Position numbers and translations under genes: made by a program. From NCBI GenBank assembly GCA_022821065.1, contig JAJEEK010000006.1, forward strand, positions 1 through 64,000: DNA of 64,000 bases. The letters run 5' to 3'. Source of the DNA: Candidatus Poribacteria bacterium. GTDB lineage: Bacteria; Poribacteria; WGA-4E; WGA-3G. The notes under the pieces were generated by a model. The model had not been told where the DNA came from and did no database searches. It saw only the letters and a program-made list of their open reading frames with translations. Positions 45,293 through 51,017 of the stretch are shown piece after piece. Each line of letters starts with the position of its first letter. Positions within the stretch are counted from its first letter, which is position 1.

Positions 45293-47233
45293 ATGCAGTT
45301 CCTGAACCCTGCAGCGTTTTACCTACTCGGCGTCATCCCGATTGTGGTGGCACTTCACTTTCTGAAGCTGCGCCGCCACACCCACCTCGTTCCGAGTATC
45401 ATGCTCTGGCTCACCACCGACGAGGATCGGCGAGCGAACGTTCCGTTCCAACGGCTTCGTAACCTACTACTCCCGATACTACAGATCCTATTTCTTTTAC
45501 TTGTGATCTTCAGCGCAGCGCGTCCGGCACTGCGTAGACCCGGATTTATACCGGGACGCGCAATTCTCATCGTCGATAATTCCGCGAGCATGCTATCAGC
45601 GGAGACCGGGGAAACGCGTCTCAATCTGGCAAAACGGGCGGCACACAAGCACATAGAAGAGGTCGCCACTGGCGGCGGGATGATGCTCATGGTGACGAGT
45701 GCTACCGAATCTGATAATTATATCCGGGAAGCCTTCACGACAGATACAGCGAAACTCCGCAGCGCAATAGAAAATATCCCACAAAGCCATGTCCCACGCA
45801 ATCTCCGTCCCGTCTTTGATGCCGCATCGCGCTATGTCGAGTCTACACAAGACAAAGTTTTCCTGATTAGCGATAATTTTGAAAATTTACCGGAGACTTC
45901 GCTCTCTGTTCATAAAATCGGTGTCGGCAGTGATGCTGAGAACATCGGTATCGTCCGTTTCAGTGTCGAGATCGTCCGAGATCAATATGAGGTGTTGGTC
46001 GGTATTCGGAATTTCACGGATACCGTTAGAGCGGTAGACGTCGAGCTGGCGGTTGAAAACGCTACTTTCGATAGCAAAACGGTATCTATCCCTTCAAAGG
46101 CGACGAAGCCGGTCCTGTTTTCAGGTGATCCAGAGGGTTTAGTGGATAAAGTTATTCGCGTCCATCTTCCGACAGAAGATGACTTTATGCTGGATAACAG
46201 TGCCGCTGCTGTCTTGTCCGACGTGTCTCAATTCCGAATCCTGCTTGTCAGTGACAACCAAAAGTCTTTGCTCCCCGCGCTTTTAGAGGCGTATGGGGAA
46301 CATGTAGACCTACATGAGGTTGTTCCTGCAGATTATGTCGGTACCGGCAATTCCGAAATAGCGGTTTTCGATGGGAGTACACCCGCTGGACGCGAGGCTT
46401 TAGGGCGTTCTGTTGGTGCTGCACCCGGAACACATCTAATTTTTATCAATCCCGGGAACAACCTTCCGTTCATCGGAGAAGCGGACGGTACCGTTGAAGA
46501 TATGGCAGCACCGATACACGTTATCCAAACGGCTGAGGCGCACCCGCTCATGACCAACGTATCGCTACAAGACGTACGGGTCCTTAAATCGACTTCCCGA
46601 ACGTTGCCGCTTTTAGGACATTCACTTGTCGAAACAGAGAAAGGGGCGTTGATATGGATCGCGCAAGCGGCGGGTCGTCAGTTTCTTATCTTTGAGTTCG
46701 ATGCGTTCAACCCAGAGGTCTCTAACTTCGCGACGACTCTTCCGGATGCACCCCTGTTCGTCTATCAATCTTTGGCACGCTTTGAGTCAGGAACGGCAAC
46801 GCTGCGACCCCTTGAATTTACGGATGGACAGACGCGACACGCATTCCGCACTGGCGAATCCGTAAGGATTACAGCCATTGCCGAAGGTGCTACCGTTCAC
46901 ATCGAAAAACCCGATAAAGAGACTGTTGAGGGGGCAGATTCCTTATTCACCGAGACGGATCAGGTCGGGGTCTATACCCTCTATGCCGATAATAGACCGC
47001 TTGAAAGATTCACGGTTAATCTACTCGACGCGGACACATCAGCACTCTCACATTCGGCAACGACAACCGAGACAGATACGTCGGCATCCATCGAAAACGG
47101 ATTCCAACCGATGACACAAGAGGTGTGGCGGTTCCCCGCGCTGCTCGCATGTATTGTACTACTATTGGAGTGGTGGTTTTATCATCGGGAGGGAGTACCT
47201 GTTACCAGAAGACTTGGCGGAGCGACTGCGTAA
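45293..47233 (+). CDS. BatA-domain and von Willebrand factor A membrane protein
   Basis: A 646-residue protein. The N-terminal BatA segment (MQFLNPAAFYLLGVIPIVVA) and a second helix near 57-75 anchor it; the VWA domain follows with the metal site D-N-S-A-S (AILIVDNSASM). A long periplasmic-type beta-rich region and a C-terminal helix (FPALLACIVLLLEWWFY) complete it. Such proteins occur with MoxR ATPases in Bat/stress systems, but no MoxR gene is in the window. GGAGAGG precedes the ATG. The stop codon lies within a loose TGCGTAAGTCCT repeat end. Confidence 0.87.
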   Translation: MQFLNPAAFYLLGVIPIVVALHFLKLRRHTHLVPSIMLWLTTDEDRRANVPFQRLRNLLLPILQILFLLLVIFSAARPALRRPGFIPGRAILIVDNSASMLSAETGETRLNLAKRAAHKHIEEVATGGGMMLMVTSATESDNYIREAFTTDTAKLRSAIENIPQSHVPRNLRPVFDAASRYVESTQDKVFLISDNFENLPETSLSVHKIGVGSDAENIGIVRFSVEIVRDQYEVLVGIRNFTDTVRAVDVELAVENATFDSKTVSIPSKATKPVLFSGDPEGLVDKVIRVHLPTEDDFMLDNSAAAVLSDVSQFRILLVSDNQKSLLPALLEAYGEHVDLHEVVPADYVGTGNSEIAVFDGSTPAGREALGRSVGAAPGTHLIFINPGNNLPFIGEADGTVEDMAAPIHVIQTAEAHPLMTNVSLQDVRVLKSTSRTLPLLGHSLVETEKGALIWIAQAAGRQFLIFEFDAFNPEVSNFATTLPDAPLFVYQSLARFESGTATLRPLEFTDGQTRHAFRTGESVRITAIAEGATVHIEKPDKETVEGADSLFTETDQVGVYTLYADNRPLERFTVNLLDADTSALSHSATTTETDTSASIENGFQPMTQEVWRFPALLACIVLLLEWWFYHREGVPVTRRLGGATA

Positions 47234-47369: not shown

Positions 47370-47978
47370 CTATTCGGGCTCGTCTATTTCTAAGATTCCG
47401 AGAATCCGTTCTACCAAAACGTTGCTCGGCATTGCCCCCACAAACGCACCTGCAATCTCTCCATCTCTGAATACGATATAGGTCGGTGTCCCGCGGATAT
47501 GATATTCACCAGTCTTCTGTGGTTGCGTATTAACATCCAACTTGGCGAAGGTAAAGGTATCCCGATATTCTAATGCTACAGCTGTGACCACAGGCTTCAT
47601 CAGTATACAGTATATTCAGCGTTCCGATTTAAATTCTACGACGATCGGGAGTTCGGAACCGAGAACGATGTCGTCAAAAGTTACGTCGGTAACTTCAAAT
47701 GGAATACCGGATGTTTGACCGAGATAGGTCGCCGTGAGTACCAAATCTAAAATATTGACGGTGCCATCCCTGTTGATGTCCGGGTTGGGGGATTGATCTT
47801 CGGTAGGCATCTCGCCAAAATGTGAGGCGATGAATGTGAGGTCGAGGATATTCACGAAGCCGTCGGTGTTGACATCGGCTGCGCTCCGAGCATCGAAATC
47901 CTCATCTTCAGCGTGATTTGTTGCCCAAAAACCGAACACGAGGCTCAGCATTAGCAACGAAAGAACCAATTTTTTCAT
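47370..47978 (-). CDS. Dockerin-thioredoxin protein with in-frame TGA, probable selenoprotein
   Basis: Read through one TGA, this gene gives a 202-residue protein: signal peptide (1-23), type I dockerin (about 33-90, calcium loops DVNTDGFVNILD and DINRDGTVNILD), then a thioredoxin domain from about 95. The TGA (47616-47618, position 121) stands where the first active-site Cys belongs: FKSER-U-IYC-ILMKPVV. The frame continues with a normal thioredoxin C-terminal half including the cis-proline segment IRGTPTYIVF. A hairpin with a GGTC loop starts 22 nt after the TGA. A dead gene is the alternative, but the paralog at 48072-49892 has TGA at the same place. AAGGAACGT precedes the ATG. Confidence 0.8.
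47582..47593 (-). promoter_or_regulatory. Candidate bacterial SECIS hairpin of the 47370-47978 gene
   Basis: On the minus strand CTGT (47593-47590), loop GGTC and ACAG (47585-47582) form a small hairpin whose loop lies 27-30 nt after the TGA. The E. coli fdhF SECIS also has a GGUC loop about 19 nt after UGA. The stem is short, so this is a candidate only. Confidence 0.4.
47616..47618 (-). other. In-frame TGA at the thioredoxin active-site Cys (probable Sec codon)
   Basis: The codon lies between CGC (Arg) and ATA TAC TGT, giving U-I-Y-C. It aligns with the first Cys of CxxC and with the TGA at 48303-48305 in the paralog. Confidence 0.78.
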
Positions 47979-48071: not shown

Positions 48072-49892
48072 TTAATTTATAGCCTTGAGAACGTTCTGAA
48101 CGAATTCATTTTTCGGTGTTTCGCCTGCGAAACGTCCAACTTCCTCTCCATCTTTGAATATGATGTAAATAGGCTGATATCTGATCCCAAACTTTCTGGA
48201 TGTTTCGAGGTTCTCTTCCCGGTTCAATTTTCCGACAGCGAATGTATTCTTGTTCTCTGAAGCAATTTCGGCGACAACTGGCACCATTTTTTGGCAAAAC
48301 GGTCACCAGTCCGTATAAAACTCGACCACGATGGGAAGCTTAGACCCAAGCACGACGGTATCAAAGTTCGCATCGGTGACTTCAATCGGGATACCGTCAT
48401 AAGCACTCGCAGTGGTAAAGGTGATGTTAATCTCGGTCCCGTTGTTGGCAGCGTCTCTAACTTTTCCAGTGATAACATAAGTAGTCTCCGGGTCGAGTTC
48501 TTTGCCAGGGACAGGTGTAAGCATCACTTTGTTGCCATCAAAAGTGGTGATCCATCCGACATTATCGTCTGCTTCGGTTCGCAGCGTGACGAGACCACGG
48601 ACATCTTCGCTGAACACGATTTCAATCGTCGCGCTTGGGTCAACGTCTGTATCGCCATCACTGACCGTCCCACCCGTGATTGACGGTGCCTCCGTATCCG
48701 GTGCGACGACCGTGTAAGTGAACGTTAGACTCCCATCCGACCAAGTGATTGTCAGTTCCAGTTCCCCGGGTGTAAAGGGTCCCGTGATTGTGACACTGTC
48801 TCCATCCGTTGTGGCAGTCCCTGTGGTGGTTGTCACGTCCTGTGGCGGATTGTCGAAAGTTAGCGTGATACTATCCTCGGTCGTAATCTCTACGCCGCTT
48901 TCTGGCTCTGCACTAACAAATGCGACAAGTGGTCTGACGGTATACGAGAGAGTTTCGGCTCCATCTTCCCAAGTGACCGTCAATTCCAGATCACCGGGTG
49001 TAAAGGGACCGGTGATGGTAACACTGTTCCCTTCGGTTATAGCGACCCCATTGCTGACGGTAACATCCGCTGGCGGATGGTCAAAAGCCAAGGTGATGGC
49101 ATCGTTTGTCGTAATTTCTGTCCCACTTTCAGGATCTGCACTAACGAATGCGACAACCGGTCTGGCAGTATAGGAGAGGGTTTCGGTTCCATCAGCCCAA
49201 GTGATCGTCAACTCAAGATCACCGACTGTGAAAGGACCCGTGATTGTGACACTGTTTTCATCGGTTGTGGCAGTCCCTGTGCTGGTTGTCACGTCCTGTG
49301 GCGGATGGTCGAAAGTTAGCGTGATACTATCCTCAGTCGTAATCACCACGCCGCTTTCTGGCTCTGCACTAACAAATGCTGCAACCGGTCTGACAGTATA
49401 GGAGAGGGTTTCGGTTCCATCAGTCCAAGTGACTGTCAACTCAAGATCACCGACTGTGAAAGGACCCGTGATTGTGACACTGTTTTCATCGATTGTGGCA
49501 GTCCCTGTGCTGACGGTAACATCCGCTGGTGGATTGTCAAAGGTGAGGGTAATACTATCGTTCATGACGAGTTCAGAACCGATTTCTGGATCCACGCTAA
49601 CGAACGCCACCGGGGGTCTGACGGTTTCGCCGAGATGGTTCGCGACGAGTACCAAGTCAAGAACGTTGACACTGCCGTCGCCGTTGACATCTGGGCTAGG
49701 CGTTTGGTCCTCGGCGACGATCTCACCGAAATGTGAGGCGATCAGCACCAGATCAAGGACGTTTATCATTCCATCGCTGTTGACATCAGCTGCCCGTAAG
49801 GTCTCAATATCTGTTTCTTCTTGCGCGTAGCTTGCTGTTGAGGCGAGGAATGCTAAACTGAGTATTAGCAACGAACAAGTCAGTGTTTTCAT
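48072..49892 (-). CDS. Dockerin / Ig-like repeat / thioredoxin protein with in-frame TGA, probable selenoprotein
   Basis: Read through one TGA, this gene encodes 606 residues: signal peptide (1-23), type I dockerin (about 35-90), four near-identical Ig-like repeats of about 76 residues (95-400; each with SITLTFDNPP and SVTITGPFT), a Big_5/SbsA-like domain (about 403-500, SDGDTDVDPSATIEIVFSED) and a thioredoxin domain (510-606). TGA (48303-48305) is residue 530 in VVEFYTDW-U-PFC-QKMVPVV, exactly the first active-site Cys. After it the same frame gives KFGIRYQPIYIIF and a normal end. Tryptophan uses TGG next to it, so TGA is not a Trp codon. Reduction or isomerisation of disulfides outside the cytoplasm is the likely job. 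AAGGAAAACG precedes the ATG. Confidence 0.8.
48270..48285 (-). promoter_or_regulatory. Weak candidate SECIS hairpin of the 48072-49892 gene
   Basis: GGTG and CGCC (one G-T pair) enclose an 8-nt loop (CCAGTTGT) lying 22-29 nt after the TGA. The spacing suits a bacterial SECIS but the stem is only 4 bp, and other foldings are possible. Confidence 0.25.
48303..48305 (-). other. In-frame TGA at the thioredoxin active-site Cys (probable Sec codon)
   Basis: The codon order GAC TGG TGA CCG TTT TGC gives D-W-U-P-F-C, the classic W-C-x-x-C context with TGA for the first Cys. Confidence 0.8.
48690..49620. repeat. Four tandem Ig-like domain repeats (about 230 bp each)
   Basis: The DNA of the four repeats within the 48072-49892 gene is highly similar; the word GGACCCGTGATTGTGACACT recurs unchanged in two units. 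This indicates recent duplication and possible copy-number change. Confidence 0.8.
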
Positions 49893-49979: not shown

Positions 49980-51017
49980 CTAAGTTGTATCCGTTTTTTC
50001 GTTGTGCCATCCCTGAACCGCTTCCGGGATGGCTTGTAGGTTTTCGATGGTTGTCTGGAGTGGAATTGCGCATTCCGGTCCTATCAGTGGAACACCGGCA
50101 TCCAAGTTTTTTACGACCTCTGCTTTAACGTCTTCAGGTTCTTTGGCGAACAGCGTTTCGGGGTTATTAATATTTCCGACGAGTGCGATCCGTTTTTTTA
50201 TGATGTCCATAGATTCACTCGGTTCGTTTTTCGAGTCGTAATGGAAGGCTGCCATCCCTGTCTGTGCGATGTATTCCATCCGGTCAACGGTGCGCCCACA
50301 GATATGGAGTATAAGTGGGATCGGAATACGATCGACGAATTCGATGTGAAGGTCTCGGAGGTAGTGCTGATAGTATTCGCCGCTGACAAGGTCGCCTGTG
50401 GCGTGGTCAGGAAGCGTCAGGGCATCTGCTCCCGCCTCAATCTGCGCGACACCGAATTGCACGGTTGCTTCCTTCATCCGGTCGAGTGCGAGTTTCGTTT
50501 TGCCGGGGTCATCGAGCGACAGCAACAAGAACGGTTCGACACCGAAGCAGTGGTAGCCGAGCGACCAAGGCCCCATCGTCTTCCCGATGATAGCGACTTC
50601 ATCGCCGTATTCTTTTTTCAAGATTTTAATCGCTTCGAGGACGCACTGTGTATCTGGGTGTGTTAGAAAATCATCTGGGATAGCGATGTCATCGACATCC
50701 TCCCAGATCGGTTCCCGCATTTTGACGGTGGGCCAGTTATCCTTCTGTTCCCACTGGATTTTGCAGCCGAGTGCGCTGGATTCTTGGATAATCGTAAAGA
50801 CTGGCATGATGGTGTCGAATCCGAGTTCAGTGTATCCTGTGGCAGCGAGACGGGCCATCAATTCCGGTTCTCGGTTCGCTTGTGGGAAAGGTGCCTCTAC
50901 CAGGTCCATCAGTTCGACAGTGGCGACGGAGGTCGGGTTGCAGACAGGTGTGCGATCGGTCGGTTCGTTACGGAGTGCAGCGAGTACACGTTCACGGCTC
51001 GTCATTGCGTTTGGCAT
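49980..51017 (-). CDS. Uroporphyrinogen-decarboxylase-fold methyltransferase (MtaA/CmuA-like)
   Basis: A 345-residue TIM-barrel of the URO-D superfamily, closer to corrinoid methyltransferases than to HemE: TSRERVLAALRNEPTDRTPV at the start, PWSLGYHCFG in the middle, the zinc ligand pair in PLILHICGRT (H-x-C) and the later Cys in LIGPECAIP. MtaA-type enzymes move methyl groups between methylcobalamin proteins and thiols. The methyl source here is unknown. GAGGAAAC precedes the ATG at 51017, and the unknown gene at 51030 starts the same leftward pair. Confidence 0.87.
   Translation of the reverse strand: MPNAMTSRERVLAALRNEPTDRTPVCNPTSVATVELMDLVEAPFPQANREPELMARLAATGYTELGFDTIMPVFTIIQESSALGCKIQWEQKDNWPTVKMREPIWEDVDDIAIPDDFLTHPDTQCVLEAIKILKKEYGDEVAIIGKTMGPWSLGYHCFGVEPFLLLSLDDPGKTKLALDRMKEATVQFGVAQIEAGADALTLPDHATGDLVSGEYYQHYLRDLHIEFVDRIPIPLILHICGRTVDRMEYIAQTGMAAFHYDSKNEPSESMDIIKKRIALVGNINNPETLFAKEPEDVKAEVVKNLDAGVPLIGPECAIPLQTTIENLQAIPEAVQGWHNEKTDTT

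Follow-up and report, generated by a model that had tools for sequence, protein, structure and literature searches.

Two side-by-side genes of a “Candidatus Poribacteria” bacterium each carry an in-frame TGA at the first active-site position of a thioredoxin domain, and, as judged from sequence comparison, selenocysteine (Sec) is very likely inserted at both. Both genes lie in the window, by which we mean the whole 64,000-nucleotide stretch of DNA that was analyzed. We are confident in an overall reading in which the TGAs are very likely Sec codons and the two predicted exported proteins are likely tethered through their dockerins to extracytoplasmic cohesin proteins and there would reduce disulfides or peroxides by means of UxxC. 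The coordinates of the genes, their domains, and their neighbors are collected in Table 1.

Table 1. Features of the predicted dockerin-selenothioredoxin gene pair and its surroundings in the window
Feature	Position	Strand	Remarks
Downstream convergent conserved neighbor, presumed VWA/BatA-like membrane protein	45293..47233	+	In 32/40 genus stretches
Short gene: dockerin-selenothioredoxin	47370..47978	-	202 aa with TGA = Sec; predicted exported
Short protein thioredoxin domain, UIYC active site	47403..47696	-	
SECIS-like hairpin, short gene	47570..47603	-	Apical loop GGTC at +27 to +30 after TGA
In-frame TGA of short gene	47616..47618	-	Predicted Sec codon, residue 121
Short protein type I dockerin	47721..47879	-	Dockerin_1
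Predicted signal peptide of short protein	47910..47978	-	By-eye reading
Long gene: dockerin, four Ig-like repeats, Big_5, selenothioredoxin	48072..49892	-	606 aa with TGA = Sec; predicted exported
Long protein thioredoxin domain, UPFC active site	48090..48386	-	Pfam
SECIS-like hairpin, long gene, 17 to 34 nt after TGA	48269..48286	-	Loop AGTT at +24 to +27; weak energy; synonymous-site invariant in genus
In-frame TGA of long gene	48303..48305	-	Predicted Sec codon, residue 530
Big_5 Ig-like domain, residues 399-494	48411..48698	-	Pfam
Four 76-residue Ig-like repeats, residues 92-395	48708..49619	-	Sequence period and beta-sandwich model
Long protein type I dockerin	49632..49790	-	Dockerin_1; two DxNxDGxxNxxD repeats
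Predicted signal peptide of long protein	49824..49892	-	Sequence read by eye; N-terminal helix in structure model
Upstream conserved neighbor, presumed uroporphyrinogen-decarboxylase-like	49980..51017	-	In 30/40 genus stretches

An earlier note on this DNA had described the long gene alone; the gene is real, but it is one of a pair within a wider set of paralogs, and the short gene had been overlooked. The long gene has AAGGA a few bases 5′ of its ATG, and the only odd codon in its frame is the TGA, which is seen on the minus strand in the context EFYTDW-U-PFC when it is read as a residue and which falls, as had been claimed, at the first position of the thioredoxin UxxC. In both window genes the TGA occupies the column of the first active-site Cys, the second Cys is kept, and a thioredoxin fold and family match are found. 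The W-C-x-x-C motif put forward earlier describes the long gene (DW-U-PFC) but is rejected as a general motif because 58 of the 89 TGA-containing members found in the genus have a residue other than W ahead of U. A scan of the window for further readthrough frames of the UxxC or CxxU type gave no other candidate that was convincing by eye.

The long protein matches Pfam Dockerin_1 at residues 35 to 87 (44.0 bits; cutoff, 22.9), Big_5 at residues 399 to 494 (66.5 bits; cutoff, 23.6), and Thioredoxin at residues 503 to 601 (76.5 bits; cutoff, 23.5). The short protein matches Dockerin_1 with 61.1 bits (cutoff, 22.9), and both calcium-binding repeats are visible in each window protein. Between the dockerin and Big_5 of the long protein lie Ig-like repeats of exactly 76 residues each, which start at residues 92, 168, 244, and 320; the Pfam search placed no Ig family on them and gave three spurious-looking matches there. 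In the predicted model, which is poor at residues 498 to 529, where its database rows end, the repeat region is all beta and aligns with titin Ig tandems, a comparison limited to the families in the structure list used. Pfam, the 76-residue period, and the all-beta model together bear out the type I dockerin, the four Ig-like repeats, and the Big_5 domain that the earlier note had named, and the repeats may serve as a spacer. The signal peptide it had placed upstream of the dockerin is matched by a signal-like start when read by eye, and export itself is predicted. The N termini of both proteins have a lysine near the start, a hydrophobic core, and an end of short residues in this by-eye reading, and these segments are presumably cleaved signal peptides.

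The names of the two conserved neighbors in Table 1 are our assumptions, the upstream one being taken as uroporphyrinogen-decarboxylase-like (URO-D) and the downstream one as VWA/BatA-like. At least one of them is present in 37 of 40 genus stretches, which differ in extent, indicating a shared gene order.

The codon at the active-site column was followed across the genus in 60 stretches, 59 from 35 same-genus relatives and 1 from an outgroup genome, picked among the matches listed. All stops were read through, and every domain was aligned to a profile of the host's own four paralogs. Among 101 genus domains, 89 have TGA at the column and 12 have a Cys codon (8 TGT and 4 TGC). Neither TAA nor TAG occurs there, and no other stop was found in 10,666 codons, a total that includes two TrxA controls (L204 and L205). 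Thus, the column holds TGA or Cys codons and not random stops, as the Sec reading of the earlier note entailed, and the random stops or frameshifts that it had named as contrary evidence are absent in general, with the exceptions of one transposase-cut gene (G006) and one frame-shifted database protein (P0050). In the former (L152), which has no active-site column and is not in the count of 101, a transposase interrupts the short gene close to the active-site codon, and the long gene of the same genome reads through.

By layout and motif, the 89 TGA domains comprise 37 long domains (some of which run off the contig before the dockerin), 35 short domains, and 17 domains of a lipoprotein class. 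All 36 genus genomes have a long or a short TGA domain, and 33 have both; the long form is missing from G034, and the short form is missing from G006 and G028. The last of these genomes also encodes two tandem lipoprotein selenothioredoxins (L178; AVWUGVC and AVWUGAC), one of which has an extra repeat like those of the long protein. Median dN/dS values after the TGA are 0.36 for the long (n = 37), 0.13 for the short (n = 35), and 0.21 for the lipoprotein (n = 17) domains, compared with 0.22, 0.09, and 0.21 before it; these values are rough, since they come from simple Nei-Gojobori counting at dS values near 1. By this codon comparison, purifying selection acts on the region that follows the TGA.

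These results bear on whether the TGA is a true stop, which would leave the dockerin or dockerin-Ig part functional alone and make the thioredoxin half a decaying remnant. Gene callers do end the proteins there, as in 88 of the 120 short-form homologs listed (of 324) and 118 of the 120 long-form homologs listed (of 494). However, the half after the TGA is under purifying selection and free of other stops, TAA and TAG are absent from the column, and complete Cys homologs of the short form exist, which together make a true stop very improbable. A sequencing error or strain-specific pseudogene is refuted, and its probability is negligible, because the TGA recurs across assemblies: the same codon is found in the 89 domains from 36 genus assemblies and in 15 of 19 loci of two sister genera.

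When the short protein was used as a query, 324 relatives were obtained, 120 of which were listed. Among those listed, the 88 truncated proteins are dockerin fragments that stop at the residues before the TGA column, ending with the four residues that precede it or close variants of them. Cys stands at the column in 30 of the 31 listed proteins that are at least 170 aa long and also in the shorter P0098 (131 aa); the one exception among the 31, P0050, has a frameshift at this point. For the long form, no Cys homolog was seen: among the 120 relatives listed of 494, none passes the column, and the 118 noted above end just before it. Protein databases mostly contain the Poribacteria dockerin-thioredoxins in a form cut short at the TGA codon.

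Short-form matches at an E value of 1e−25 or better occur in 57 of 84 genomes of the phylum, all within the host's own family: 38/38 in its own genus, 2/2 and 17/18 in two sister genera, and 0/26 elsewhere. The 19 loci of the sister genera divide into 15 with TGA, 2 with TGC (G062 and G063), and 2 with TGT (G065 and G071). A tree was built, with the column masked, from 50 rows with Sec and 15 with Cys, the latter being P0098, 4 genome loci, and 10 of the 30 full-length database proteins that have Cys. Its well-supported branches force at least three changes between Sec and Cys; bootstrap values were not fully settled. In the host's own genus, genome G035 encodes a dockerin-thioredoxin with TGC (L203) on a contig other than that of its Sec pair. 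We also found in the Sec-pair cluster of this genome a Cys-type lipoprotein Ig-thioredoxin (L185).

The host genome encodes the machinery that Sec insertion needs, and all four of the components proposed earlier as a check were found: tRNA-Sec (76.4 bits; cutoff, 47), selB (362.5 bits), selA (597 bits), and selD (362.5 bits), the protein genes likewise over their cutoffs. ARAGORN also reports a tRNA-SeC (tca), 155 bases from selB. The selD gene is itself a predicted selenoprotein gene with its own TGA (CAG-U; L036:1004-1006, contig C4 of G000), followed by the hairpin GCTC-CGGGT-GAGC, the loop of which begins 16 nt after the TGA.

Across the host and its relatives, tRNA-Sec was over the cutoff in 51 of 60 genomes. 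It was found in 32 of 36 draft genomes of the host's own genus and not in G025, G031, G034, and G035; in the first three of these, selB is over the cutoff, although it starts 93 bases into its contig in G025 and is partial in G034. Neither tRNA-Sec nor selB over the cutoff was found in G035. In the sister genera, 17 of 20 genomes have tRNA-Sec, and G070 has selB without tRNA-Sec; G064 and G067 (81% and 73% complete) encode TGA forms, yet no tRNA-Sec and no selB over the cutoff were found in them. Most sponge symbiont bins are reported to contain SelA together with SelB (PMC5649159).

Readthrough as such is well supported, and it could in principle insert Trp, Cys, or Gly via a changed code or a suppressor tRNA. 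The Cys homologs and the full Sec machinery point to Sec instead. TGA also still seems to work as a terminator: it ends 10 of the 46 window open frames of at least 200 codons (some of which are perhaps not genes), and in some of the selenothioredoxin genes themselves a second TGA, seemingly the terminator, stands where relatives end (e.g., L154, L163, L173, L179, and L181). In addition, the hairpin loop described below is missing from four sister-genus Cys genes. We thus consider another residue at the TGA highly unlikely. Overall, a true stop, a changed code, and an assembly error were all rejected on the basis of selection after the TGA, a column of TGA and Cys codons only, recurrence, and the apparent continued use of TGA as a terminator.

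The RNA after the TGA was compared with a published bacterial SECIS model (PMC13188914). Among the short genes, 34 of 35 agree with the model, as do 15 of 17 in the lipoprotein class, compared with 45% and 46% of synonymous shuffles, a high pass rate for shuffled sequences; among Cys paralogs, 3 of 12 agree, compared with 13% of shuffles. The short gene of the window scores −9.1 and fits the model. In the long gene of the window, loop and spacing fit but the energy of −4.1 falls short, and in the long class as a whole only 6 of 37 genes reach −7.5 kcal/mol (shuffles, 32%). The mean z scores of folding energy against synonymous shuffles are −1.33 for the short, −1.35 for the lipoprotein, +0.35 for the long, and −0.26 for the Cys class; the energies thus lie below those of shuffles in the first two classes and not clearly so in the Cys class, and the long-class RNA downstream of the TGA is not more stable than its synonymous shuffles.

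Because energy alone did not set the long class apart from shuffles, we also examined synonymous conservation and counted base pairs. The loop AGTT stands at the same place, 23 nt after the TGA, in 35 of 37 long genes, and at codons +8 to +13 all five informative codons never vary synonymously, whereas the 27 codons outside +1 to +16 have a mean ratio of 0.60 relative to the synonymous variation expected. The synonymous ratio is also lower around the loop than elsewhere in the lipoprotein class (0.33 versus 0.48) and slightly lower in the short class (0.48 at +5 to +13 versus 0.66), and it is higher in the Cys paralogs (0.71 versus 0.55). One stem pair of the long class occurs as C-G, U-G, U-A, and A-U through amino acid changes. 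Of the seven pairs counted, a single one that varies (columns 23-34) contributes most of the signal, and a further one (25-32) is not paired in 31 of 34 distinct rows. The lipoprotein class shows weak covariation: there is one double change, and 32 of 500 shuffles score as high.

The motif [AG]GT occurs between +23 and +30 in all 72 long and short genes, in 3 of 17 lipoprotein genes, in which the hairpin loop lies further on, and in 1 of 12 Cys paralogs. In the sister genera, CC[GA]GT[GT]GT was read by eye in all 15 TGA genes and in none of the 4 Cys genes. We interpret this element as a putative SelB-binding loop, retained only in genes that use Sec. The SECIS check suggested in the earlier note thus gave a clear hairpin in the short gene and the lipoprotein class and, in the long gene, one that is energetically weak yet conserved at synonymous sites.

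The weakness of the long-form hairpin would suit a selenium-gated gene with two products, in which an exported dockerin-Ig or dockerin-only protein is made when Sec is low, the full selenothioredoxin is made when Sec is available, and both matter. A signal-like start and a complete dockerin do precede the TGA in both genes. However, no constraint favoring a separate short product was found, and Cys homologs of the short gene would yield the full form only, which makes a second functional product unlikely.

In our preferred reading, the full-length selenothioredoxins act outside the cytoplasm. SelB and Sec-tRNA would read the TGA, the signal peptide would take the product out of the cytoplasm, the dockerin would bind a cohesin, and the domain with UxxC and cis-Pro would reduce disulfides or peroxides. 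A selenol is chemically advantageous over a thiol in redox catalysis. P75, which we take to be the cis-Pro site of thioredoxins, is invariant in the thioredoxin domain.

Partners for docking are encoded by the host, whose genome has 48 dockerin and 10 cohesin (PF00963) matches, and cohesins were found in 36 of 36 genomes searched. The window dockerins probably bind cohesins of the same cell. Three of the 10 cohesin places were examined; one is in a large protein with a dockerin of its own, and one gave no open reading frame in the stretch. One cohesin sits in a 225-aa lipoprotein-like protein with a Pro/Glu-rich stalk (L265:3072-3749, minus strand), which is a plausible candidate for the membrane anchor of the dockerin proteins.

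A Thioredoxin_7/TPR protein that has DW-U-GFC and begins with a signal-like segment (L034:1847-2752, plus strand) is likely another exported selenoprotein. A lipoprotein-like thioredoxin with Sec (AEWUGFC; L032:2730-3218, minus strand) lies about 9 kb from one with Cys (AVWCPFC; L032:11603-12862, minus strand), which has a weak Ig match. Lipoprotein thioredoxins of both types are found repeatedly in the genus, commonly together on a single contig, and wherever they were read the first type has TGA and the second has Cys.

Our guess is that electrons could be passed on by a DsbD-like protein together with the Sec-containing lipoprotein thioredoxin; the translation of L021 is presumably such a DsbD-like protein. 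Taken further, both dockerin selenothioredoxins could sit on lipoprotein-anchored cohesins as parts of an extracytoplasmic selenium-dependent redox machine that is fed by the Sec-lipoprotein thioredoxin and DsbD, that keeps reduced or remodels the disulfides of the bacterial surface assembly or of a matrix belonging to a host of the bacterium, and in which the TGA also gates between the full protein and an empty dockerin-Ig form. We offer this extended scheme tentatively and regard it as doubtful.

Thioredoxins with UxxC are among the known prokaryotic selenoproteins (PMC13188914 and PMC9312934), and Sec-thioredoxin, with 11 sequences, is among the Sargasso Sea selenoprotein families (PMC1088965). 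The Poribacteria forms share with known Sec-thioredoxins (Trx; PF00085) the Trx fold, Sec at the first active-site position, Cys homologs, and a SECIS-like hairpin. They differ in that the domain is C-terminal behind a dockerin (and, in the long form, Ig repeats), predicted to be exported, and encoded by a tandem pair, and in that the residue before U is often not Trp. Both window proteins are below the cutoff of NCBIfam TIGR01068 (72.8 and 59.0 bits versus 96.8).

Fusion selenoproteins have been described from the Global Ocean Sampling data, namely, Prx/PP2C, UGSC, and Prx-like fusions (PMC2398784). They resemble the window proteins in joining a Trx-fold selenoprotein to another domain, and they come from marine bacteria; the domains joined to them include a PP2C-type phosphatase, a distant Secretin_N, and others that are unknown, and the main text of that paper does not mention a dockerin.

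The two-repeat type I dockerins over the Pfam cutoff, with cohesins in the same genome, are like those of cohesin-dockerin assemblies. Cellulosome dockerins mainly carry glycoside hydrolases; unlike them, the Poribacteria window dockerins carry a redox protein as cargo. An extracytoplasmic Trx fold would do chemistry similar to that of exported thioredoxin-like proteins such as TlpA, ResA, DsbE, and StoA. Of these, only StoA matches the window proteins, and weakly (18.1 bits; cutoff, 210), and the Poribacteria forms have Sec in place of Cys and a dockerin in place of a membrane anchor.

The earlier note had regarded an exported, dockerin-linked selenoprotein as new. Exported selenoproteins as such are not, since periplasmic formate dehydrogenases are already known, but a dockerin selenothioredoxin was not found in our searches of the open-license PubMed Central literature. 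In these searches, no paper joins selenoprotein, thioredoxin, and dockerin or selenoprotein, cohesin, and dockerin, none links Poribacteria with cohesin and dockerin, and none combines dockerin, thioredoxin domain, cohesin, and extracellular. Because Sec-thioredoxins and Trx-fold fusions are known and the dockerin combination is absent from the literature searched, we regard the window proteins as a dockerin-borne variant of an established family.

If this reading is correct, it would add a selenoprotein family present in all 36 examined genomes of one Poribacteria genus and, as short-form TGA genes, in 15 of the 18 that represent a sister genus, and databases would mostly store its members as dockerin fragments without the catalytic half. 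The family would also offer a natural series of Sec/Cys exchanges in which the presence or absence of the hairpin loop matches the residue. Furthermore, it would tie selenocysteine to cohesin-dockerin assembly and suggest a modular extracytoplasmic redox activity in a candidate phylum.
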